A DNA stretch of 64,000 bases from an uncultured Aeriscardovia sp. GTDB taxonomy: Bacteria; Actinomycetota; Actinomycetes; Actinomycetales; Bifidobacteriaceae. Position numbers and translations under genes: made by a program. Shown in pieces: positions 24,350-63,855 of this stretch. Positions within the stretch are counted from its first letter, which is position 1, and every line of letters starts with the position of its first letter. Below the pieces are notes generated by a model. That model searched no databases. It was not told the DNA's origin and was given only the letters and a program-made list of their open reading frames with translations. Location of the stretch: NCBI GenBank assembly GCA_903789525.1, contig CAIFER010000001.1, positions 930,001 through 994,000 of the forward strand. The letters are read 5' to 3'.

Positions 24350-26059
24350 TTAAATCAGCGGACGACGAGCACCCGTTGCCCTCATGTACCACATGTTGTT
24401 ATTAATGCGAACACGTGGAGGATAGGACTCGATGATAGAAGTACCGCCGAGGTAAATGGCAACGTGACCTGGATAGAAGATGAGATCGCCGCGTCGAATC
24501 TGAGAGAGTGGGACAGACATGAAGTGACCGTCAACACTCATAGCTCCGGCGTAGTGAGAATGATCATGGCCGTAGCGATCAACGCCCCTCAGGTGGTCGA
24601 CAGAGTTGTACCAGCCGAGATTCATGCCATCTGCATACAGGCCTTGCATCACCAGGCCAGCGCAATCAATGCCTTGACCCGGCTGAGCTGCCCAATCCCA
24701 CCGATACGGGGTATTCAGATACTGATACGCACGGCCAATAAACTTCTCAACTGCTTGGTGCCGCGAATCAGCAGCCCACAGTGTAGGGCGAGGAGCCTCT
24801 GGATCGGTCGACGTCTTGCAAGAGCACGTCTGGAATGCCCAGCGCGGATTCTGCCAACCGAGCTTGCAGCCTCTCCATTCGAGCGTTCCATGTTCAAATG
24901 TCTGGCGAATGCCCTCCTGGAAGTACGTCTGTTCGCCCGTTGGGAATCCGAGATTGCCCTGCTCATAACGATGCTGACGATACTGGCCCAACAGAAGCCC
25001 ACGAACAGAGTGAACATCGCCTCTCCTACCGTTCCAGAACAAAGTGCCGCCCTGGAACGTCTGCGAAGCGCCACCCTTAACATGCAGCTCATCGCCGGTC
25101 GGATAGCCGAGGAAACCAAACTCCCAATTGTGAGAAGCCCAGAACGACTGAATTCCACCGTGCGTTGCATGAGCACCCGTACGCGGAGACCAATGAATCT
25201 GGCCATGCTCAAACAGCTGAGAGACGCCACCGCCCTTACGTGAATGACGCTCTTCTGAAGTCGGGAAACCGAGGAAGCCCTTCCAATAGCCTGAACAACG
25301 ATAGGCTCCCAAATTAGCGCCCTTCACAGAGTGGACAGCGCCATTCTTACCGTTCCAGAACAACGTGCCGCCCTGGAATGTTTGAGAGGCAGCGCCTTTA
25401 GTGCTCTCTTCCTCACCGGTCGGGTAACCGAGGAAACCGTTCTCCCAGCCACGCGAAGACCAGAACGACTGAATTCCTGCATGTGTAATATGAGCACCCG
25501 TGCGCCGAGTCCAATGAATCTGACCGTGCTCAAACTCCTGGGAAACGCCACCAGCCTTGCGCAAATGACGCTCATCATTCAGTGGGAAGCCAAGGGAACC
25601 GTCAACAGCCCCCGACTCTGTGTAACGACTGCGGATCGCACCTCTGACTGCGTGCACGGCACCGGTCTGACGCCTCCAGAACAGCACTCCACCTTGGAAG
25701 TCCTGTTCAGTACCACCCGTGACAGGCTTTTCGTCAGACGTCGGGTAGCCAAGGAAACCATTCTCCCAGCCACGAGAGGCCCAATAAGAGTTCATGCCAT
25801 CGTGCGTCCAATGAGTCCCCGCCGTAGGTGACCAATGAACGTCACCATGCTCGAAAGACTGCGTTGCACCTCCGCGGATGCTCCGCTCTGCTCTCGTCGG
25901 TTTACCGAGCTCTGGATGCTCTGAAGCATATTTTTCAATCTCGCCATGAGATGGTGACGGCTGAGCTTCAGGAGCTGCCTGAGCCGGTGCTACAGCTAGA
26001 CCAACTGCAGCTGCGGTTGCAACAACATACCCTATCAATTTTTGTGTCAATACTCGCAT
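24350..26059 (-). CDS. Secreted LGFP-repeat protein with C-terminal NlpC/P60 peptidase domain
   Basis: Signal peptide MRVLTQKLIGYVVATAAAVGLAVAPAQA; repeated NGFLGYPTxxE...Q.FQGGxLFW; C-terminal GIDCAGLVMQGLYADG...GDLIFYPGHVAIYLGG. Confidence 0.88.
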   Translation of the reverse strand: MRVLTQKLIGYVVATAAAVGLAVAPAQAAPEAQPSPSHGEIEKYASEHPELGKPTRAERSIRGGATQSFEHGDVHWSPTAGTHWTHDGMNSYWASRGWENGFLGYPTSDEKPVTGGTEQDFQGGVLFWRRQTGAVHAVRGAIRSRYTESGAVDGSLGFPLNDERHLRKAGGVSQEFEHGQIHWTRRTGAHITHAGIQSFWSSRGWENGFLGYPTGEEESTKGAASQTFQGGTLFWNGKNGAVHSVKGANLGAYRCSGYWKGFLGFPTSEERHSRKGGGVSQLFEHGQIHWSPRTGAHATHGGIQSFWASHNWEFGFLGYPTGDELHVKGGASQTFQGGTLFWNGRRGDVHSVRGLLLGQYRQHRYEQGNLGFPTGEQTYFQEGIRQTFEHGTLEWRGCKLGWQNPRWAFQTCSCKTSTDPEAPRPTLWAADSRHQAVEKFIGRAYQYLNTPYRWDWAAQPGQGIDCAGLVMQGLYADGMNLGWYNSVDHLRGVDRYGHDHSHYAGAMSVDGHFMSVPLSQIRRGDLIFYPGHVAIYLGGTSIIESYPPRVRINNNMWYMRATGARRPLI

Positions 26060-44305: not shown

Positions 44306-44392
44306 CCGATAATCTTGGAAGCCTAACTCGTAAATCTATCTGACTTATCTGGGCTAATAACGGTGAAATCTGTTCGAATACGCCTATATCTG

Positions 44393-44920
44393 CCTTATAT
44401 GGGGTGCGTGATCGGACGTATCTCGTTTATGTGGGGTGCGTGTGAGCGGATATCTCATCTAATTGGGGCACGTAAATGGGCATATTTCGCCTAATTAGGG
44501 CACTTTCACGCTCTTATCATTTTCAAGACCCGCATGATATCAACGATCCTGTTTCCGCTACTCTCCCCAAAGTGCCCCAATTAGCCCAGATAGGGTGTTT
44601 TTGGTTCCCAGTTAAGGCAGATTCGGTCTTCTTCTGCCGCCTAAGTAGTTCTGATGGCTTATCTGGGTAATCTCTCGCATCTAACTGGGGTCATATATAT
44701 TGCTTTTTGTCTAACTGGGGTAATCGTTTTCTCACTCGATTTCTAAGAATTGCATTATTTCAATGATCCTGTTTTTCGGCTTTCGGGAATCCACCCCAAT
44801 TAGGCGAATTGAAACCCCAGTTAGGCGAGTGAGACCTTTAAAAGACCAAAAAACAACCCCAGATAGGCATGGAAGACATATCCGACCCCAGATAAGCCAA
44901 AGGGACTCCCTTAAATAAGT
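44393..44920 (+). repeat. Composite YTAWNTGGGG repeat cluster A (units A1 ~44393-44626, A2 ~44656-44920)
   Basis: Forward motifs (TTATATGGGG, TTATGTGGGG, CTAATTGGGG, CTAACTGGGG) on the left, reverse complements (CCCCAATTAG, CCCCAGTTAG, CCCCAGATAA) on the right of cores ATCAACGATCCTGTTTCC and TTCAATGATCCTGTTTTTCGG. Confidence 0.85.
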
Positions 44921-45263: not shown

Positions 45264-46900
45264 TTACTTCACCTGCTGGTCGTAAGCCTTCTGCCACAGC
45301 TTGGTATTGTCTTCAATCTTGTACTTCTTGAGGTTGGACTGGAACTCGTTCCACTTCGCATCGTTGTCTGCACCGCCCTTGGTCACAAACCGCGCGACCA
45401 CAGGGATGGCGTAGTTGAACAGTGCGGTATTGGTGTTGGCGAAGTCATTCTGCTCGCTTTCAGGGAGCTGAACGTAGTTCGGCATCATATCCTTCGTGTG
45501 GCTGTAATGCTTGTACTGCTCGTGATAAGCCTCGTCAGCTTTTGCGAAGTGATCAGCAACATAATCACCGGTCACATTGATGTCATCGGAGACCCAGCCA
45601 GCCAGACGATCAGACAGTGCTGGAAGATTTGATCCTTCAGCCATCTTCTTGCGGAAGCCAGGGGTAACCTCGTAGGAATTCGGTCCCTTTTGCAGAACAT
45701 CGGTGCCAATCGTACCGTACTCCTGCTGAATGGAATACTTCTTGGAGTACAGGAGATTGATGACCTTCAGAGCCGCGTCCTTATTGGCCGCATGAGACGA
45801 CATCGCGCACTTGAAGTTCTCGAAACGAGTCATCGGGCCAGAACCATCGGCGACAACCTTGCTCTGCGGAACGCCAGGGGCAGCTGGCATCGGAATGGAG
45901 ATGTACTGATTGGCGATCTTGGAACCGTAGGCACCGAATGCGGAGTCATCCCAACCAAATGCGACGCCGACTGTTGCTGCAGACTTGCCATCGCCGCCAT
46001 TACGAGCGTTGTACTTATCATCATCAGCGGTGACCCAGTCCTGCGGAGTCAGGCCCTCGGAACGCAGTTTGTACAGGAACTCGATGACTTGACGGAACTG
46101 CGGAGTCTGCATGAAGTTGCCGACCTTGCCGTTCTTGACGTAAATGCCATTCTGCGATGGACCAGAGTTCGAAGTGGTCACAATGCCGGTCGAGTTCATC
46201 AGAATTGTCGGCAGATACCAATCGGTGATGCGGTCGGTCTCCAGCTTCTTCGGGTTAAACGGAATCTCATCGGCCTTGCCGTTGCCATTCGGATCACGAG
46301 TCTTGAAGGCCTTGAGCACATTCTCCAACTCATCCCATGTGGTCGGAACCTTCAGACCGAGCTTGTCGAGCCACTGTTTGTTGATCATCAGATGCGAGCC
46401 AGCGCCTTCGAACTTCTTGAAACGACCAGACGGGAGAACATAGATCTTTCCGCCGAGCGTAACAGTCTTCTTGATATCTGGACGATCACGGAAGAACTTC
46501 TGCACATTCGGAAGCTTGTTCAGATCCTTGCCCAGCTCTTCAAAGGCCTCCGGATTATGAGCTGCATCCGACGGGCTAAACGTATCAATATCAACATCAT
46601 CGATCTCGCCAGCTGCCAGAGCCGCATTCTTCTGCTGGCCCCATGCCTGATCAGAGACCTCATGCCATTGAATATGGACTCCAGCGTCCTTAGCGAGCTG
46701 CTGCGCCCACTTCATCTTGGACATCTTGGCTTGATCAGACTTCTTCAGAACAAGAACCTAACGATTGGCTTGCCGTCAGATGCGACAGCGGAATTCGAAT
46801 TCCCGCATGCTGCCAACGAACCGAGTGTTGCAAGTGCTGCGAGGGCGGCAACCGTCTTGACTGCAACGTGCTTTCCTTGTCCGCTATGCTGCTCAGACAT
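45264..46900 (-). pseudogene. Extracellular solute-binding lipoprotein with apparent 1-nt frameshift near residue 45
   Basis: ATG 46900 reads MSEQHSGQGKHVAVKTVAALAALATLGSLAACGNSNSAVASDGKPIVRFLF*; the adjacent frame continues VLVLKKSDQAKMSKMKWAQQLAKDAGVHIQWHEV... for >480 aa. Junction near 46756-46763. Confidence 0.75.
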
Positions 46901-47216: not shown

Positions 47217-48375
47217 CACGCACATATCTCTTATCTGGGGTTTCGGATCTCGTTATGTGGGGTTAAAACATGTCTTCCTCGCCTATCTGGGGTGAGGAAC
47301 TCGTCTTATTGGGGGCAGACTTTAGGGAACCGAAAAACGAGATCATTGCAACGAGTGGGATTCTGGAAATTGGGTTAGAAGATGGTGACCCCAGTTAGGC
47401 GAAGAGCAATTTCTCTGACCCCAATTAAGGACGGTAAATCACCCATTTAAGCCAACAAACCTATATGAGTGCGGAAAACCGACTGGATCTCCTCTAAGTG
47501 GGAACCAAAAACACCATATACGGCTCTCTTTGCGATCAATTGGCTCTATCTGCACACTACTGGCCCTATGTGTAGCGGAAAAATAGGAGTTCAACTAAGT
47601 AGTTCGCTTAAGTGAGTGCCCACCCGCGTTAAGTGAGCACATTTCGTGAGTGAGCAAGCGATGAGAATCGTTGGAATCACGCGGTTTCTCAAAAACGTCA
47701 GGAAAAATAGAGGACGCAGATAGACGAGAAGAAGACTCATTTAGGCGAAAAACAATATTTTCATACCCAGATAGAAGCGATATCACTCAAATAACGATGA
47801 TTCCCACTCAGATAGAGTCAATTTGACCTCAGATAAGCGAGACAGGTCCTGTAGGGAGCCCACATAGGTCAATTGTCTGAAGCGAGCGCGGGGAAAGCGA
47901 CCGTATCTCCCCTAACTGGGAACCAAAAACAACCTATATGGGCTAATCGGGGCACTTTGAGGAAAGTAGCGGAAACACAATCGTTGGAATCATGCGGGCC
48001 TCGAAAATGGTATGAGTGTGGAAGTGCCCCAATTAGACTGACTATGCCCAAATACGCACCCAATTAAGGCAGATTCAATCGCCAATCACTTCACCTAGAT
48101 GAGATAGACGCATAAGACAGCTCGCTTGACCCCCTATCTCGCTTAAGTGGATTCAATAACAGCCCTCTCAACAGGTCCGCTCGCCTAAGTGGATGGAAGG
48201 CGAGCAGAGACTAATGGCGAGGGTGAGCCAAGATCGTTGAAACAAGTGGGTTCCCGAAAATGAAAGGCGAAAACCTCGCATCCATTTAAACGCGTATAGA
48301 ATCCACTTAAGCGAGAAGCAATGTTTTTAAATCCACATAAGCGAGATTGAGGTACTTCCCTATCCAAATAAACAA
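47217..48375 (-). repeat. Composite YTAWNTGGGG repeat cluster B (units B1 ~47217-47456, B2 ~47490-47875, B3 ~47905-48075, B4 ~48134-48375)
   Basis: Four units with convergent motif arms around cores (minus strand) TTGCAATGATCTCG, TTCCAACGATTCTC, TTCCAACGATTGTG, TTTCAACGATCTTG. Confidence 0.85.
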
Positions 48376-51827: not shown

Positions 51828-53792
51828 ATGAGCCAGCCGAAAAGCGCTGACGGCACATCGAGCACGGTAAAAAATGACGACCGGAATAACTCGCCTGAAA
51901 ACGAACAGCAGCTCGTCTCACCGGGTCAGAAGCTTCTCGAGCAGCGTGAAGAAGCCGAGTACCAGCGTGATTTGGGATCCGCAAAGGATTTCCGTTATCT
52001 GTTTCCCAGCTTGAGGCAGTATCGTGCCCCTTCGATTTGGGCAATTATCTGCATCTGCCTCGAGGCGTTCGTCGAACTATGCATCCCGATGCTGACTGCG
52101 CGCCTGATCGACGACGGTGTTACCCGCAAGAACATGCAAGCTGTGCTGTACTGGGGTGGCATTCTTGCTGCTCTATCCCTCGTCGCACTTGTCTTTGGAT
52201 CACTCGCCGGCATCTTCTCAGCGAAGGCATCGGCAGGATTCGCCCGTAACCTGCGCCATGACCTGTTCCACAAGGTTCAAGGCTTCTCATTTACCAACAT
52301 CGACCACTTCTCGACAGGCTCGATCATCACACGTCTAACGACCGACGTCACCAATGTGCAGTTCGCTTACCAGCTCACGATCGTCATCGCCTTCCGCGCG
52401 CCAGTCCTCATGGTGGTTGCGTGGATCCTCTCCTTCCAGTTGAGCCATTCGATTTCGCTGATGTTCCTGCTCATCTTCCCAGCAATGGGCATCATTATTA
52501 TTTTGATCGCTGCGCAAGTGCACCCGTACTTCGTCCGGGTTTTCCACACGTACGATCGTTTGAATTCGAATGTGGACGAGGACCTCAATGGTATGCGCGT
52601 GGTCAAGTCCTTCAACCGCGAGAGCTACCAGCAACAGCGCTTTGAGCGCGTCTCGCAGCGCATTTACGACCTCTTCGCCAAGGCTGAGTACCGCCTCGCC
52701 ACGCTCAATCCGATCGTCAATTTCTTCATGTTTGCGGCCATGATCGCCCTGTCGTGGATGGCAGCCAATCAGATCGTTGCATCTGGCAACAATCCTGCAA
52801 ACGGCCTCACGACCGGCGATCTCGCTTCACTCATGACCTACCTCGTGGCAATGCTCTCCGCAGTTCTAATGATGCTAGACGTCTTTATCATGATCATCAT
52901 TTCCCGCGCTTCTGCCTCCCGCATGGCAGCAGTGCTCCGTGAAAAGAACACAATGAAGATCGCCGATCACCCACTCACGGATGTGCCAGATGGATCCGTT
53001 CAGTTCGACCATGCGATCTTCCGCTATGACGCAACCGGCACCGGCGATGCGGTGATTGATGATGTCTCGCTGACCATTCCTTCTGGCTCAACCGTCGGCA
53101 TCATCGGCGGCACCGGGTCTGCAAAGACGAGTCTCGTCCAGCTCATCCCACGCCTCTATGATGTCCAGCGCGGAAGCGTGAAGGTTGGCGGTCACGATGT
53201 GCGTGATTATGACCTGAAGGCTTTGCGTACAGCCGTCTCCATGGTCCTGCAGAAGAACACGCTCTTCGCCGGGACTGTCGCAGAAAATCTGCGTTGGGGC
53301 AATCCTGACGCCACTGACGAAGAGGTCCTGCGTGCCTCGAAGCTCGCTCAAGCTGACGAATTCGTCCAGCAGATGCCCGACAAATACGAGACCAAGATTG
53401 ACCAAGGCGGAGCGAATGTCTCCGGCGGTCAGAAGCAGCGCCTGTGCATTGCCCGTGCCTTGCTGCGTCGGCCGAAGGTCTTGATTCTCGACGACTCCAC
53501 GTCAGCTGTTGACACCAAGACCGACGCACTCATTCGTCACGCTCTTGCGACAGAAATCCCGGACACAACGAAGATCATCATCGCCCAGCGCCTCTCCTCC
53601 GTGCAGGACGCCGATCAGATCTTCATGATGGATAACGGTCGAGTCGTTGCACATGGCACGCACAAAGAGCTTCTCGCCTCCAACGAGGAATATCGCGCGA
53701 TCTACGATTCGCAGAACCAAAACAAGCGTGAAGCCCGTCGTGTCAAGGAAAAGATCGAAGGAACCATGCAGAAGGGAGGCCAGAATGACTGA
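51828..53792 (+). CDS. ABC transporter ATP-binding/permease protein (heterodimeric exporter subunit 1)
   Basis: Fused TMD-NBD; VGIIGGTGSAKTSLVQLIPRLYD, NVSGGQKQRLCIARALLRRPKVLILDDSTSAVD. Confidence 0.92.
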   Translation: MSQPKSADGTSSTVKNDDRNNSPENEQQLVSPGQKLLEQREEAEYQRDLGSAKDFRYLFPSLRQYRAPSIWAIICICLEAFVELCIPMLTARLIDDGVTRKNMQAVLYWGGILAALSLVALVFGSLAGIFSAKASAGFARNLRHDLFHKVQGFSFTNIDHFSTGSIITRLTTDVTNVQFAYQLTIVIAFRAPVLMVVAWILSFQLSHSISLMFLLIFPAMGIIIILIAAQVHPYFVRVFHTYDRLNSNVDEDLNGMRVVKSFNRESYQQQRFERVSQRIYDLFAKAEYRLATLNPIVNFFMFAAMIALSWMAANQIVASGNNPANGLTTGDLASLMTYLVAMLSAVLMMLDVFIMIIISRASASRMAAVLREKNTMKIADHPLTDVPDGSVQFDHAIFRYDATGTGDAVIDDVSLTIPSGSTVGIIGGTGSAKTSLVQLIPRLYDVQRGSVKVGGHDVRDYDLKALRTAVSMVLQKNTLFAGTVAENLRWGNPDATDEEVLRASKLAQADEFVQQMPDKYETKIDQGGANVSGGQKQRLCIARALLRRPKVLILDDSTSAVDTKTDALIRHALATEIPDTTKIIIAQRLSSVQDADQIFMMDNGRVVAHGTHKELLASNEEYRAIYDSQNQNKREARRVKEKIEGTMQKGGQND

Positions 53793-55887
53793 ACCAGAGA
53801 CCAAGACTGATACGCAGACAGTCGAAGCGCAGGCAACACAAAGTGCTGAACGCGCTGATCATGTCGAAACCGCTGGAAGCGTGATAAAGACGAAGAACGC
53901 GAAGAAGAAGCACACCATGTTCGGCGATGACGTGCGACCGGGAACGTTCCGACGTCTTGCCGCGTACATCATGCACTATCGCTGGCGTGTGATTGTCGTC
54001 TGCATCCTCCTCATCATTGACGCGGGCATCATCGCGCTGTCTTCCGTGGCGAATCAGAACCTCGTGGATGACTACATCATGCCACTGCTAGGTAAGCCAC
54101 ATCCCGATTTCAGCCCTCTGATCCGCTTCCTCACCATCCTTTCTCTTCTCTACATCATCAGCGCGTTGACAGCTTGGGCCCGCCCACTCGTCCTCGTTAA
54201 GGTAGAACAAGGCACCCTCAAGCGCATCCGCGATCAAATGTATGCACACATGCAGCGTCTGCCGATCGGTTACTTTGACCGCAACGAGCACGGCGACATC
54301 ATGTCCCGCTACACGAACGACACCGATACCTTGCGCCAAGCCATTTCCGAAGCCTTCCCGCAAATCCTCTACGATGGCTTCTCCGTTTTGTGCACACTCA
54401 TCGGCATGCTGTGGGTCTCCGTTCCACTCACGCTCGTGACCGTCGTGCTCACAGTGGCAATCATGGCCGGCAACAACGTCCTCGTCTCGCGCTCAGGCCG
54501 ATATTTCGGTAAGCAACAGAAGGATCTTGGCACAGTCAACGGCTTTGTGGATGAATCTGTCAACGGTCAGAAAGTCATCAAAGTCTTCACGCACGAGGAT
54601 GCCACACAGGCGCAGTTCGATCACGTGAACGACGCGCTGAATCACTCGAGTTCGCTCGCAAATATCTACGGAAACCTTCCGGGACCCGTTGTTAACAATC
54701 TTGGCTATCTGGTCTACGTGATCGTGGCAATCATTGGGTCAGCTGGAGCTCTCGGAAATTGGGGGAACCCAACCCTGCACGGTGGTACTGTCCTCACCAC
54801 CGGCGCCATTATTGCGTTCCTGACTCTGTGCCGTTCATTCATCAATCCGATGGGTGAGATCGCGCAACAAGTTACTCAGGTCTTGATGGCTCTGGCAGGC
54901 GCATCCCGCATCTTCGAGCTTCTGGATGAGCCCGTCGAAGAGGATCACGGAACTGTCACCCTCATCAATGCAAACGTGGCAAAGGATGGCACGATCACGC
55001 CATCTGATCACCGCACTGACAAGTGGGCGTGGGATGTCCCTGCCGGTGTCAAAGTCAATACCAAGGATGCAGAAGTCACAGTCGCTCACAGCGCAACCGG
55101 TACCACTGATCCTACAGAAGCTGATGCCACAAAAGCTGAAGCATACACGCGTTTGCGGGGCGATATCCGCCTCGACCACGTGGACTTCTCCTATGTGCCA
55201 GGTCATCAGATTTTGCACGACATCAGCATTCATGCCACTCCAGGTGAAAAGGTTGCCCTCGTCGGCGCGACTGGCGCTGGCAAGACGACGATCACGAACC
55301 TCGTCAACCGGTTCTACGACATCGATGCAGGCAAGATTACCTATGACGGCATCGATATCACTGATATCGCCAAGCCAGATCTGCGCCGCAGCCTTGGCAT
55401 TGTGTTGCAAGATGTGAACCTCTTTACTGGCACTGTCATGGACAACATTCGCTACGGGCGACTGAATGCGAGTGATTCCGATTGCGTTGCGGCGGCTAAG
55501 CTCGCCAATGCAGATGGCTTCATTCGCATGCTCCCGGACGGCTACCGCACGATCCTCACGAACAACGGCTCTGACCTCTCCCAAGGCCAGCGCCAGCTGA
55601 TCTCAATTGCTCGTGCTGCTGTCGCCGATCCACCGGTCATGATTCTCGATGAGGCGACCAGCTCCATCGATACGCGTACTGAGCAAATCGTCCAGCAAGG
55701 AATGGATCGGCTCATGGAAGGCAGGACCGTTCTCGTGATCGCTCATCGCCTTTCCACGATCCGCAACTCCGACCAGATCTGCGTAATTGATCACGGCCGA
55801 ATTATCGAGCGCGGCAACCACGATCAGCTCATTGCCAAACGCGGCGAGTACTACCAGCTCTACACAGGAGCTCTCGAACTCGAATAA
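53785..55887 (+). CDS. ABC transporter ATP-binding/permease protein (heterodimeric exporter subunit 2)
   Basis: VALVGATGAGKTTITNLVNRFYD, DLSQGQRQLISIARAAVADPPVMILDEATSSID; ATG at 53785 overlaps previous CDS (ORF opens at 53647). Confidence 0.92.
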   Translation: MTEPETKTDTQTVEAQATQSAERADHVETAGSVIKTKNAKKKHTMFGDDVRPGTFRRLAAYIMHYRWRVIVVCILLIIDAGIIALSSVANQNLVDDYIMPLLGKPHPDFSPLIRFLTILSLLYIISALTAWARPLVLVKVEQGTLKRIRDQMYAHMQRLPIGYFDRNEHGDIMSRYTNDTDTLRQAISEAFPQILYDGFSVLCTLIGMLWVSVPLTLVTVVLTVAIMAGNNVLVSRSGRYFGKQQKDLGTVNGFVDESVNGQKVIKVFTHEDATQAQFDHVNDALNHSSSLANIYGNLPGPVVNNLGYLVYVIVAIIGSAGALGNWGNPTLHGGTVLTTGAIIAFLTLCRSFINPMGEIAQQVTQVLMALAGASRIFELLDEPVEEDHGTVTLINANVAKDGTITPSDHRTDKWAWDVPAGVKVNTKDAEVTVAHSATGTTDPTEADATKAEAYTRLRGDIRLDHVDFSYVPGHQILHDISIHATPGEKVALVGATGAGKTTITNLVNRFYDIDAGKITYDGIDITDIAKPDLRRSLGIVLQDVNLFTGTVMDNIRYGRLNASDSDCVAAAKLANADGFIRMLPDGYRTILTNNGSDLSQGQRQLISIARAAVADPPVMILDEATSSIDTRTEQIVQQGMDRLMEGRTVLVIAHRLSTIRNSDQICVIDHGRIIERGNHDQLIAKRGEYYQLYTGALELE

Positions 55888-55912
55888 GTCCATTCGAATT
55901 CCATTTCTGTTC

Positions 55913-55942
55913 ACCCCATGCGTGATTCGCTCCACATGGGGT
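55913..55942 (+). terminator. Rho-independent terminator after first ABC pair
   Basis: ACCCCATG...CATGGGGT followed by TTTCTTTTTCTC. Confidence 0.8.
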
Positions 55943-55970
55943 TTTCTTTTTCTCTGAGGGATAAAAGATA

Positions 55971-55984
55971 GTTGCGCATGCAAC
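55971..55984. promoter_or_regulatory. Putative MarR operator GTTGCGCATGCAAC
   Basis: Perfect 14-bp palindrome upstream of marR-like gene. Confidence 0.65.
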
Positions 55985-56001
55985 AATTCCGGATTAATTT
56001 A

Positions 56002-56015
56002 GTTGCTTATGCAAC
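56002..56015. promoter_or_regulatory. Putative MarR operator GTTGCTTATGCAAC
   Basis: Same GTTGC-N4-GCAAC arms, 31 bp centre-to-centre from the first, overlapping the regulator start codon. Confidence 0.65.
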
Positions 56016-56593
56016 GACTTGATGAAGATGAGAAAGAGAAGGTTACCCGATCCCGGTATGCCAATTTATCCCGCAAACTCACCGCAGACGACTTTGTGAC
56101 TGATCCCACGCTCTCGTCCGAAGAACTACTCGTCAATATACATATCGTCGGGAGCGTTGCTGATCGTTACTTTTCCCGCACCGAGCCGAGTGACCTACCC
56201 ATCACAGGAACAAACGCTCGCTTTATTGGTCTTCTTGCGCGATCTGACCGATGCGGTCGCACATTACACCAGACAGATTTCGAACACGCGCTGTCGCTGA
56301 ACCGCTCAACCGTCAGCCGAACTCTGGACCGCATGGAAGAGATGGGACTCGTCCAGCGAGTTCCGGATCCGCACGACGGCCGTCAGCTTCAGATCGTCTT
56401 AACTGAGCAAGGTCACAATACCAACGAAATGCTGCACAGCGAGATCCAGAAGCGCGGCGAAGCGTTGATCCACGGCATCCCGCCTGAAGATCTTGCCGCT
56501 GCTTTACGTGCTATTCAAGCGATCATCGACAACGCTCGAAAACTGACGAAGCAAGCAGAAGAACAAACGACAGAAACAGAAAAGGAGAGGTGA
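56003..56593 (+). CDS. MarR family transcriptional regulator
   Basis: winged-HTH: FEHALSLNRSTVSRTLDRMEEMGLVQRVPDPHDGRQLQIVLTEQG; start TTG 56003 or ATG 56009. Confidence 0.9.
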   Translation: MLMQRLDEDEKEKVTRSRYANLSRKLTADDFVTDPTLSSEELLVNIHIVGSVADRYFSRTEPSDLPITGTNARFIGLLARSDRCGRTLHQTDFEHALSLNRSTVSRTLDRMEEMGLVQRVPDPHDGRQLQIVLTEQGHNTNEMLHSEIQKRGEALIHGIPPEDLAAALRAIQAIIDNARKLTKQAEEQTTETEKER

Positions 56594-56594
56594 T

Positions 56595-58565
56595 ATGGCA
56601 ACTGCTCAATCGACGCGGACCGGACAATCCTCACGTCTTGCACAAAAGGAAGCTCGGCAGCTGACCAATGAAGAACGCCATCGCGCAGCTCAGCAAGCGG
56701 CCGAATACAAACGCGATCTTGGTTCGGCTAAAGACTTCAAGTATCTGTTTCCAAGCCTGCGCGAATATAAAAAGCCAGCCATCATTGCCCCGATTCTCGT
56801 CGCACTTGAGGCACTCGCGGAAATGTTCATCCCCGCATTGATGGCAAATCTCATTGACCAAGGCATTACACCAAAGAATATGGGCGAGATCTGGCATTGG
56901 GGCATCATCCTTCTGCTCCTCGCCGCCGTCGCCTTACTCTGCGGAATGGGATCGGCTCGCGCTTCCGCCATCGCATCCGCTGGTTTTGCGAAGAATCTAC
57001 GTCAAGACCTGTTCGATCAGGTCCAAGGCTTCTCCTTCACGAATATCGACCACTTCTCGACCGGCTCAATCATCACCCGTCTGACCACCGACGTGACCAA
57101 CGTACAGAACGCTTTCCAGATGATCATCATCATCGCGTTCCGCGCCCCACTCATGGTCATCATCGCCTGGATCTTGACGTTCCGAATCAGTCACCAGATC
57201 TCGTGGATCTTCCTGGTTGCCCTGCCGATCATGTTCGCTGTCCTCATGGTGATCGCCATGCACGTTCATCCGATCTTCATTCGCGTCTTCCACACCTACG
57301 ATGAGCTGAATGCGGACGTGGAGGAAGACTTGAACGGCATGCGCGTGGTCAAGTCCTTCACCCGTGAGGACTATCAAACCAAGCGCTTTACGGACGTCTC
57401 CCAGCGCATTTATGACCTGTTTACCAAGGCTGAACGCCGGCTCGCATGGAACAACCCGATCGTCACCTTCTTCATGTACGCAGTCATGCTGATCATGAGC
57501 TGGATGGCCTCGACCGCGATCGTCGCGTCCGGGAACAATGCAGCTCGTGGTCTGACGACCGGCGATATGACCAGTCTCTTCGCCTACGCCGCTCAGATGC
57601 TCATGGCCATGATGATGCTCACGATGGTCTTCGTTCTCATCATCATCTCCCGCGCTTCCGCCTCTCGTATGGCAGCAATCCTGCGCGAGAAGAACACGAT
57701 GCCGTTCGCGAGCGCCGAGAAAGCAATCACGACGGTCCCGGATGGGTCCGTACACTTCGATCACGTCACCTTCCGCTACGACACTGAAGGCACTGGTACC
57801 CCGGTCCTCAACGACGTTTCGCTCGAAATTCCATCTGGCTCGACCGTCGGCATTATCGGCGGAACTGGTTCAGCAAAGTCCAGTCTTGTTCAGCTCATCC
57901 CCCGCCTGTATGACGCCACTTCCGGTCGAGTGTCGGTCGGCGGTCACGATGTGCGCGACTATGAGCTATCTTCTCTCCGTCACGATGTGGCAATGGTTTT
58001 GCAGAAGAACACACTCTTCGAGGGCACGATCGCCGAAAATCTGCGCTGGGGTAATCCCAACGCCACCGACGAGGAGGTCCTGCACGCAGCTCAGGCAGCC
58101 CAAGCCGATGAGTTCGTTCAGCAAAAGGCTGACAAGTACGACAGTCACGTTGAACAAGGCGGTGCGAACTTCTCCGGCGGTCAGAAACAGCGTCTCTGCA
58201 TTGCTCGAGCGTTACTCCGCCGTCCAAAGGTGCTCATTCTCGATGATTCCACTTCTGCAGTGGATACGAAGACCGATGCACTAATTCGCCAGGCTCTGCG
58301 CGAGGAACTGCCGGACACGACGAAGATCATCATCGCCCAGCGTCTCTCCTCCGTTCAGGATGCCGACCAGATCTTCATGATGGACAACGGCCGCATCATA
58401 GAGCACGGCACGCATGAGGAGCTCATGAGGGCTTCTGCTGAGTACCGCGCGATCTACAACTCGCAGAATCAGAACAGGCGCGAAGCAGAGAAAGCTAAAG
58501 CCGAAACGGGAAACTCTGAAAGCCTTGGAAACTCCGAGAATTCCGAAAGCGAGGCGAAGGACTGA
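56595..58565 (+). CDS. ABC transporter ATP-binding/permease protein (paralog of 51828-53792)
   Basis: Shares FSFTNIDHFSTGSIITRLTTDVTNVQ and the NBD with 51828-53792. Confidence 0.92.
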   Translation: MATAQSTRTGQSSRLAQKEARQLTNEERHRAAQQAAEYKRDLGSAKDFKYLFPSLREYKKPAIIAPILVALEALAEMFIPALMANLIDQGITPKNMGEIWHWGIILLLLAAVALLCGMGSARASAIASAGFAKNLRQDLFDQVQGFSFTNIDHFSTGSIITRLTTDVTNVQNAFQMIIIIAFRAPLMVIIAWILTFRISHQISWIFLVALPIMFAVLMVIAMHVHPIFIRVFHTYDELNADVEEDLNGMRVVKSFTREDYQTKRFTDVSQRIYDLFTKAERRLAWNNPIVTFFMYAVMLIMSWMASTAIVASGNNAARGLTTGDMTSLFAYAAQMLMAMMMLTMVFVLIIISRASASRMAAILREKNTMPFASAEKAITTVPDGSVHFDHVTFRYDTEGTGTPVLNDVSLEIPSGSTVGIIGGTGSAKSSLVQLIPRLYDATSGRVSVGGHDVRDYELSSLRHDVAMVLQKNTLFEGTIAENLRWGNPNATDEEVLHAAQAAQADEFVQQKADKYDSHVEQGGANFSGGQKQRLCIARALLRRPKVLILDDSTSAVDTKTDALIRQALREELPDTTKIIIAQRLSSVQDADQIFMMDNGRIIEHGTHEELMRASAEYRAIYNSQNQNRREAEKAKAETGNSESLGNSENSESEAKD

Positions 58566-60634
58566 TGGCTCAGCAAAACGAAAAGATGACAGCAACATCA
58601 CAGAAGCGCAGTCGCGGTCGCGGCAGGGATATTCGCCCCGGCACTCTCAAGCGGCTGCTCGGTTACGTATCGCAATACCGTTTCCGTCTGATTCTCGTCG
58701 GTATCTGCCTGATTGTGATCGCCGTCGCGCAGGCGCTGTCTTCACTGGCACTGCAAACGATGATCGATAACTACATCATGCCGCTGGTCGGTAAATCGCA
58801 TCCGGATTGGGGACCGCTGATTCGCCTGCTGTGCGGCCTCGGTGCGATTTATGCGTGCGCCGTCATCGCCTCACTCGTCTCCCAGCAGCTGCTGGTCGTC
58901 ATCGAGCAAGGAACCCTCAAGAAGGTGCGTGACGACATGTACACGCATATGCAGCGCCTGCCGATCGCCTACTTTGACCGCAACGAGCACGGCGACATCA
59001 TGTCCCGCTACACGAACGATACTGACACGTTGCGTCAGGCTATCTCACAATCCCTGCCGCAGATGGCGTCGTCCCTGCTGACCATGACCGCCGCCTTCAT
59101 TTCGATGTGCTGGCTGAGCTTGCCGCTGACCCTGCTCACTCTTGTGCTCACCTTCGGTATCCTCGCCATCACGCGCATTATCGTCTCCCGTTCTGGCCAC
59201 TACTTCGTCAAGCAGCAGAAGGACCTCGGTGCGGTCAATGCGTTCGTCGAGGAGGCTGTCAACGGCGAAAAGGTGATCAAGGTCTTCACTCATGAGGATG
59301 CGACGAAGAAGAAGTTCCGCGCGCTCAACAACAGCCTCTTCACTGCCAGCTCGACTGCGAATGCCTACGGTAACATCGTCATGCCGATCATCAACAACCT
59401 CGGCTACCTGATCTACGTCATCATCGCGCTCGTGGGTGGTGCCAGCCTGATTGCCGGACTCGCTAACCCAACTTTGCATGGGATGGCCTCGATCACTGTT
59501 GGCACGATCGTCTCGTTCCTGACGCTTTCACGTTCATTCATTAACCCGATTGGCCAGGTTTCTCAGCAGTTCACGATGATCATGATGGCCCTCGCTGGCG
59601 CCTCCCGTATCTTCCAGCTGCTCGACGAGCCGGTTGAGGAAGATCACGGAACTGTCACCCTCGTCAACGCGCATATCGCCAAGGATGGAACCATCACACC
59701 TGCTGATCACCGCACTGATGACTGGGCTTGGCGCGTTCCAATAGGAGTCAAGGTCAACACTCACGATGCTGAGCTGTCGGTGGCAAAGGACGCGGGACGA
59801 GCTGCAATGGCTCAGTCTGTTGCTAATGCCGATGCGATTGCTGATTTGATCGGGTCTGCTCCGCGTACTTCGAAGCAGCAAGCCGGCGCTTACACGCGTC
59901 TCCTAGGCGATATCCGCCTCGACCACGTCAACTTCTCGTACGTGCCAGGACGCCAGATCTTGCATGACATCAGCATTCACGCGCATCCGGGTGAGAAGGT
60001 CGCGCTCGTGGGAGCGACCGGCGCCGGCAAGACGACGATCACGAACCTCGTCAACCGGTTCTACGATATCGACTCCGGCTCCATCACTTACGATGGCATC
60101 AATATTCGCGATATCGCTAAGCCAGATCTGCGCCGCTCAATGGGCATCGTCCTCCAGGACGTGAACCTCTTCACCGGCACGGTCATGGACAACATCCGCT
60201 ACGGCCGTCTTGACGCGACCGACGAGGAGTGCATCGCCGCCGCCAAACTCGCGAACGCGGACGACTTCATCCGCATGCTTCCGGACGGGTACGAGACAGT
60301 TCTCTCCGGGAACGGCGAGGATCTATCTCAGGGCCAGAGGCAGCTGATCTCGATTGCTCGAGCAGCCGTCGCCGATCCGCCAGTCATGATTCTCGATGAG
60401 GCAACGAGTTCCATCGATACTCGGACTGAGCAGATCGTCCAGCAAGGAATGGATCAGCTCATGAAGGGACGCACGGTGTTCGTCATCGCGCACCGTCTCT
60501 CCACGATTCGCAACTCCGACCAAATCTGCGTCATTGATCACGGCCGCATTACCGAACATGGCGACCACGATCAGTTGATGGATCTGCGCGGCGAGTACTA
60601 CCAGCTCTACACTGGGGCTCTCGAGCTGGAGTAA
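58565..60634 (+). CDS. ABC transporter ATP-binding/permease protein (paralog of 53785-55887)
   Basis: Shares IAYFDRNEHGDIMSRYTNDTDTLRQAIS and VALVGATGAGKTTITNLVNRFYDID with 53785-55887. Confidence 0.92.
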   Translation: MAQQNEKMTATSQKRSRGRGRDIRPGTLKRLLGYVSQYRFRLILVGICLIVIAVAQALSSLALQTMIDNYIMPLVGKSHPDWGPLIRLLCGLGAIYACAVIASLVSQQLLVVIEQGTLKKVRDDMYTHMQRLPIAYFDRNEHGDIMSRYTNDTDTLRQAISQSLPQMASSLLTMTAAFISMCWLSLPLTLLTLVLTFGILAITRIIVSRSGHYFVKQQKDLGAVNAFVEEAVNGEKVIKVFTHEDATKKKFRALNNSLFTASSTANAYGNIVMPIINNLGYLIYVIIALVGGASLIAGLANPTLHGMASITVGTIVSFLTLSRSFINPIGQVSQQFTMIMMALAGASRIFQLLDEPVEEDHGTVTLVNAHIAKDGTITPADHRTDDWAWRVPIGVKVNTHDAELSVAKDAGRAAMAQSVANADAIADLIGSAPRTSKQQAGAYTRLLGDIRLDHVNFSYVPGRQILHDISIHAHPGEKVALVGATGAGKTTITNLVNRFYDIDSGSITYDGINIRDIAKPDLRRSMGIVLQDVNLFTGTVMDNIRYGRLDATDEECIAAAKLANADDFIRMLPDGYETVLSGNGEDLSQGQRQLISIARAAVADPPVMILDEATSSIDTRTEQIVQQGMDQLMKGRTVFVIAHRLSTIRNSDQICVIDHGRITEHGDHDQLMDLRGEYYQLYTGALELE

Positions 60635-62923: not shown

Positions 62924-63044
62924 AAATATATAAATAAAGAAATAAATCAGGAAATAAATGAATTTATAAACGAATAATAGAATAAATTCAATGGGTGAGC
63001 GGGCTCGTTGGCAAGATTGTTATTGAATCTCGTCAGCGTGCCCG

Positions 63045-63855
63045 CTATCTCGCTTATGTGGATTTTAAAATATCGCTTCTCGGTTAAGTGGGTTTCGTGC
63101 GAGTTTAAATGGATGCGAGATTGATGTCACTTGTTTTCGGAAACCCACTCGTTTCAACGATCCTGATTTGTCACGTCTTCCGGTCTCACCTTCACGTCCA
63201 TCCACTTAAGCGAGATAGCCGTCAAGAAGAGGATTTCGCGCGCCTATCTCGCGTATTTGTGTAGATAGGTGCTTGCATCCGCCTATATGGGGTGCATGTG
63301 AGCGGATATCTCATCTAATTGGGGCACACAAATGGGCATATTCCGTCTAATTGGGGCACTTTCGCGCACTCACCATCTTGAGGATCCGCGTGATTTCAAC
63401 GATCCTGTTTCCGTTCTCTTCCCTCAAGTGCCCCAATTAGTCCATATATGGTGTTTTTGGTTCCCAGTTAGAGGAGATTGAGACGGTTGACGTACGCAGA
63501 TAGGATAAGTGATCTAAATGGGAACACAATTAAAGGAGATATAGTCGCTTCCCACACCCAGATAGGATTGTTGGCTTAACTGGGTGAATTATGGCCGCTA
63601 TCTGGGGTCAGAGAAATTGCTCTTCGCCTAACTGGGGTCACCATCTTCTAACCCAATTTCCAGAATCCCACTCGTTGCAATGATCTCGTTTTTCGGTTCT
63701 CTAAAGTCTGCCCCAATAAGACGAGTTCCTCACCCCAGTTAAGCGAAGAAGACATGTTTTAGCCCCACATAACAGGACTCAAAACCCCACTTAAGCGGAG
63801 TCGAGACCATTTCAGCCCCAAATAAGCGCGACAGCCATCATCTCAATCCAAAAAT
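63045..63855 (+). repeat. Composite YTAWNTGGGG repeat cluster C (units C1 ~63045-63220, C2 ~63278-63480, C3 ~63570-63855)
   Basis: Three units with convergent arms around cores TTTCAACGATCCTGATTT, TTTCAACGATCCTGTTTCC, TTGCAATGATCTCGTTTTTCGG; C3 has about 90-100 nt identical to reverse complement of B1. Confidence 0.87.

Follow-up and report, generated by a model that had tools for sequence, protein, structure and literature searches.

The window analysed here, a 64,000-nucleotide stretch of the genome of an uncultured Aeriscardovia sp., carries three repeat arrays in its intergenic regions. Array A (~44390-44900) lies between the genes for deoxyribonuclease IV and a 486-aa protein, array B (~47230-48375) between the 486-aa protein and an arabinofuranosidase, and array C (~63040-63830) between a GH127 gene and a lactate dehydrogenase gene situated just outside the window. 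The 486-aa protein (45264-46724) is probably an extracellular sugar-binding protein; it gave no Pfam or NCBIfam match, relatives were present in 73 of the 189 family genomes, and at C1:1000185 (L012) a 66% copy adjoins sugar-permease-like genes. Repeats of other kinds were also observed in the window, including two successive ABC exporter pairs (51828-60634) that form a tandem duplication approximately 4.7 kb apart and are 71-80% identical in stretches, and a 321-bp repeat present in three copies within a predicted coding region (25005-25721). The motif that characterizes the arrays, YTAWNTGGGG, has 26 exact matches within the window in comparison to 0.55 expected, all of them inside the three arrays, which lie within 20 kb, and 32 matches in the genome as a whole.

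Arrays A, B and C consist of nine core-centred elements in three clusters, in which the core is 18 nt long and reads about AACCGCATGATTTCAACG. Array A holds A1 (44392-44620, forward strand; core 44528-44545) and A2 (44656-44900, forward strand; core 44748-44765) and is paralogous, in the same orientation, to the final two elements of array C, with A1 showing 85% identity to C2 over 196 nt. Arrays B and C are inverted paralogues separated by about 15 kb. On the reverse strand, array B comprises B1 (47228-47480; core 47344-47361), an inverted homologue of C3 supported by inverted repeats I1 (166 nt, 91%) and I5 (85 nt, 87%); B2 (47545-47870; core 47669-47686), with motifs of the TGAG flavour; B3 (47885-48085; core 47982-47999), an inverted homologue of C2 and A1 (inverted repeats I2 and I3); and B4 (48125-48375; core 48235-48252), of the TGGAT flavour and covered by inverted repeat I4. 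Array C, on the forward strand, comprises C1 (63020-63220; core 63142-63159), again of the TGGAT flavour, C2 (63280-63480; core 63384-63401) and C3 (63549-63830; core 63665-63682), which includes the region highlighted by an earlier sequence-only reading together with the outer right motifs.

Around the cores of the window genome the lineage motif is TTCGCYTAWNTGGGGT. Motif copies are found to the left of the core at distances of -49, -70 or -80, -100, -113 and -131 and to the right at +37, +47, +59, +69, +90, +101, +111, +130 and +142, and nearly all are oriented inward. Motif positions on both arms were helically phased with a period of 10.25-10.5 bp (R 0.87-0.90; p 0.044 and 0.012 for the two arms against random positions of equal minimum spacing), as measured from few independent spacings after positions had been reduced by hand to non-redundant values. 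The motif tail differed by element, being GGGGT in A2, B1 and C3, GGGGC in A1, B3 and C2, and GGATT in B4 and C1, and was common to both arms of each window element (label-shuffle p 0.0005).

Phage attP sites are built on a similar design, with helically phased arm sites pointing inward on either side of a core. One alternative is therefore an attP-like recombination site, where a tyrosine recombinase would act at the core while its arm-binding domain reads the lineage motifs, and where the inverted B and C copies would allow the genes between them to invert. The inversion of B and C around 15 kb is consistent with such a site, as are the paired copies that flank gene blocks in other genomes (inverted in G026; 6 kb apart in G158). 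Unlike phage attP, however, the element is present in many copies per genome and has no adjacent integrase; the window genome (92% complete) contains two tyrosine recombinases (PF00589) above cut-off, probably XerC and XerD, and both are located away from the arrays. Cores are additionally positioned inside the copied units rather than at unit ends, and we consider a recombination site of this kind improbable.

The near-identical stretch that had been proposed between C3 and reverse-complemented B1 is a block of 97 nt (63603-63699) that is identical throughout and holds the core and the -49 motif as one unaltered copy, CGCCTAACTGGGGT. All of the letters previously quoted were present in the sequence. 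The variant motif pairs attributed to these two elements (CTATCTGGGG/TTAATTGGGG, CTTAACTGGG/CTTAAATGGG, CCCCAGTTAAGCGAA/CCCCAGATAGGCGAG and CCCCACTTAAG/CCCCAGATAAG) were all recovered outside the block, and the variants quoted for A1 and C2 were likewise found in the sequence. From these variants the W and N positions had appeared to swap while the spacers stay fixed, hinting at motif-targeted diversification, gene conversion or a combinatorial code. For B1/C3 the swap was borne out, as the Y, W and N positions differed at 9 of 24 sites compared with 16 of 175 sites outside the motif (one-sided Fisher p 0.0007, post hoc), or at 9 of 21 compared with 16 of 87 when the identical block was left out (p 0.02). 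This pattern did not extend further when seven homologous element pairs were aligned and scored for differences at each motif position, a set in which the pairs are not independent since A1/B3/C2 and A2/B1/C3 each give three. The other six pairs had no significant Y/W/N excess and B4/C1 had a deficit. Over all seven pairs, Y, W and N differed at 0.333, 0.250 and 0.341 per site in comparison to 0.266 outside the motif (stratified odds ratio 1.26, z 1.2), a neutral-like divergence that resembles that of the spacers, and the fixed letters T, A, T, G, G and G differed at 0.091, 0.045, 0.068, 0.045, 0.023 and 0.106 per site. Circular shifts of the motif mask gave p values from 0.27 to 1.0, so that the motif as a whole was not enriched in differences.

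A similar map was obtained from nine element pairs of genus g6, where free motif positions differed at 51 of 340 sites and spacers at 232 of 1336 (z -1.0), the core differed at 0.028 per site versus 0.175 for the spacers, and the fixed motif letters were conserved. Since the substitution maps of both the window genome and the related genus show no enrichment, the broader proposal of motif-targeted diversification or a combinatorial code is unsupported; a map of this kind is the outcome that the earlier reading had itself named as refuting it. A dedicated mutator or such a code would accommodate the B1/C3 excess and also the five substitutions that separate one recently copied pair of elements (L140/L141), all of which fall in motif copies; four of these five changes, however, are in a single motif close to the boundary of the segment that was copied, and the excess is absent from the other pairs of the window genome and from g6, making this explanation very improbable. 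The differences mark motif positions at which change is tolerated, and not a mutation hot-spot.

C3 used as a BLAST query within the family matched its own genome only, because the arms differ between lineages. All nine elements were recovered with a sequence-only profile of 90 columns, which in other genomes matched the core alone. AACCGCATGATTTCAACG allowing up to two mismatches was present in 113 of 189 family genomes in up to 23 copies, with 4 hits for the reversed control, although the core matches include some coding and accidental ones as judged by eye. Core matches elsewhere in the order were concentrated in one other family (f3). The arrays represent one local version of an intergenic element that occurs in many copies and has a conserved core and lineage-specific arms, and this element is common to bifidobacteria and the neighbouring actinobacterial family. 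A literature search that included the core sequence itself returned no description of the element, which does not prove that none exists. BLAST searches of phages and plasmids returned nothing for the element and, for the core, only three weak matches on Sinorhizobium plasmids. The exact motif had 3 matches in assembled genome contigs, which is about chance, and 19 single matches without clusters in viral contigs. One of the three contig matches, in a Burkholderiales MAG (L011), belongs to a different, GGGGTCAG-type repeat; TTAAGTGGGGTCAGATTCGATTTAA repeats are clustered at positions 1-260 of that locus and represent another kind of intergenic repeat whose motif only looks similar.

Arm motifs surrounding the shared core were ATGGAYNRCGNYGCA in the g6 genomes G155-G158, CTATCTGCGTTTCGAGGGGTTG in G023, GGGAGTT-type in G113 and G026, and GCATGCAATT or GCACGTAATT in f3, and the arms formed inverted repeats in every lineage while differing in sequence between lineages. 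In G155-G158 the motif occupies slots at -102, -68, -41, +46, +73, +107 and +134 in alternating orientation, with the inner slots occupied in 36 of 37 elements and same-strand motif spacings of 61 and 114 bp. Several loci in these genomes have an arrangement of their own. Five element copies, partly as a 125-bp tandem repeat, occur in G113 (L066, 6900-7860), and in f3 genus g85 four to five elements are placed between successive genes in steps of approximately 1.1-1.7 kb over part of the locus, with surroundings that are alike in four genomes (L192 to L195). The inverted copies of G026 (L067, 1452-6566) flank genes for a sucrose phosphorylase and an MFS transporter; the phosphorylase aligns over its full length to 1R7A, the Bifidobacterium adolescentis sucrose phosphorylase, with only about one fifth of residues different, and on this basis the family is regarded as Bifidobacteriaceae. 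The paired copies of G158 are found around a rhamnosidase gene.

Gene neighbours at 20 loci from G023, G156 and G158 were tandem at 13, convergent at 6 and divergent at 1, as determined with a simple gene caller, and the flanking genes had unrelated functions. A regulon operator was rejected on the basis of these unrelated functions and the single locus between divergent genes. Two pairs of loci (L145/L146 and L140/L141) carry near-identical copies, 98.7% over 238 bp in one case and 98.2% over 283 bp in another; since identity of about 98% at separate loci ends abruptly, the elements are being copied. Recent copies at new loci, functionally unrelated neighbours and the near absence of divergent flanking genes would also be expected of plain selfish repeats, namely MITE- or REP-like debris to which no protein binds and in which the core is kept because copying needs it. 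The element resembles MITEs as a short, sharply delimited non-coding unit of which copies have recently arisen at new loci, but its centre is more conserved than its ends, and inspection of four boundary pairs showed no evident target-site duplication. It also resembles REP, BIME and REPIN sequences, which are likewise multi-copy, intergenic, promoter-avoiding inverted repeats with lineage-specific sequence. These families differ in that a REP or REPIN is a palindrome of 20-40 bp in tens to hundreds of copies, whereas the element forms units of approximately 200-280 bp with no more than about 23 cores in any genome, a conserved central core and many short arm sites at fixed, phased distances. 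RAYT transposase (Y1_Tnp, PF01797) was detected in 0 of 10 carrier genomes while controls were positive in 5 of 14, and mobilization as a RAYT-dependent REP/REPIN was rejected on this result. Given the conserved centre, the fixed arm slots and the lack of this transposase in the ten carriers, selfish repeats are the least probable of the explanations weighed here.

The presence of inverted-repeat arms in every lineage despite their differing sequence can also be interpreted as a hairpin, where the arms pair in RNA, single-stranded DNA or a cruciform with the core in the loop and only arm complementarity is selected; variant motifs would then represent partly compensated stem changes. Among known systems, integron attC sites are likewise imperfect inverted repeats between genes whose structure is conserved more than their sequence, but the element differs in its conserved 18-nt core, which by inspection is not an attC box, and no integron integrase was identified. 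Single-strand folds of the element were moderately stable (z -1.9 to -4.3), and complementarity between an element's own arms in the window genome exceeded that across elements (36.9 versus 26.4). In f3 genus g85, two linked variable columns agreed between arms in 21 of 21 and 20 of 21 elements, giving compensated states (TGC/CGT) that form standard pairs. This same observation, that the arm states GCATGCAATT and GCACGTAATT nearly always match between an element's two arms, is what the earlier suggestion of gene conversion would predict, and with only two arms pairing and conversion explain it equally well.

Elements with more motif copies provide a comparison between pairing and conversion, and similarity within elements was assessed in G155-G158 by permuting partners within genomes. 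Variable letters agreed more often within an element for motif pairs on the same strand (0.588 versus 0.526), which are unable to pair, as well as for pairs on opposite strands (0.564 versus 0.515), and agreement was lowest for pairs nested across the core (0.553 versus 0.527, p 0.057). Own-arm complementarity was also similar to cross-element complementarity in both G155-G158 and G023. In the window genome W showed no within-element similarity (p 0.94), and the W pairs across the core of B1 were mismatched in three of three cases. Helical phasing of about 10.5 bp is not expected of RNA, and Rfam covariance models returned no relevant match to the element. As similarity within an element occurs whatever the motif orientation, homogenisation inside an array fits better than base pairing and is favoured over it, and the gene conversion suggestion gains support, as variable positions in either orientation resemble each other more inside one element than across the different elements of a genome. 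The hairpin is the main rival to our preferred explanation, and we consider it unlikely, if clearly less so than a recombination site.

Our preferred explanation, to which we give about an even chance, is a dispersed intergenic element, with C3 and B1 among its paralogous copies, that is putatively protein-binding and would form a nucleoprotein structure. The motifs would be double-stranded DNA sites bound repeatedly by a protein whose sequence preference differs by lineage, the core may be a second and conserved protein contact site, and the element would wrap into a nucleoprotein complex. Y, W and N would be positions that the putative protein tolerates and that drift, while motif copies inside one array may be homogenised by conversion or template switching, which is proposed to act on motifs because they are the only sequence shared between copies. 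Tolerated drift together with homogenisation could thereby yield variant motifs in unchanged surroundings with no need for a dedicated mutator. We count in favour of a nucleoprotein element the nine one-core units with inward motifs, helical phasing, fixed slots in g6, the spread and conservation of the core, free positions that diverge like spacers, similarity on both same and opposite strands, arm complementarity that is alike within and between elements, and discrete near-identical copies. Arm co-variation in f3, own-arm complementarity in the window genome, fold z-scores reaching -4.3 and the absence of within-element similarity at W are counted against it.

More specifically, and only tentatively, this could be an actinobacterial nucleoprotein element in which a putative protein occupies phased arm sites around the 18-bp core, the motif is rewritten in concert in each lineage as part of a co-evolving protein-site pair, and copies are homogenised within each array. 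On the nucleoprotein explanation, the arrays also caution that tolerated variation in a degenerate binding motif, combined with homogenisation inside an array, can mimic directed diversification. If the nucleoprotein explanation is true, a single core-centred intergenic element is repeated many times in bifidobacteria and the neighbouring family, and its arm motif has been replaced wholesale from one lineage to another while the core was retained. This would constitute a natural experiment in the co-evolution of a protein and its site, and may provide a handle on a putative protein that organizes or recombines the chromosome in these bacteria.
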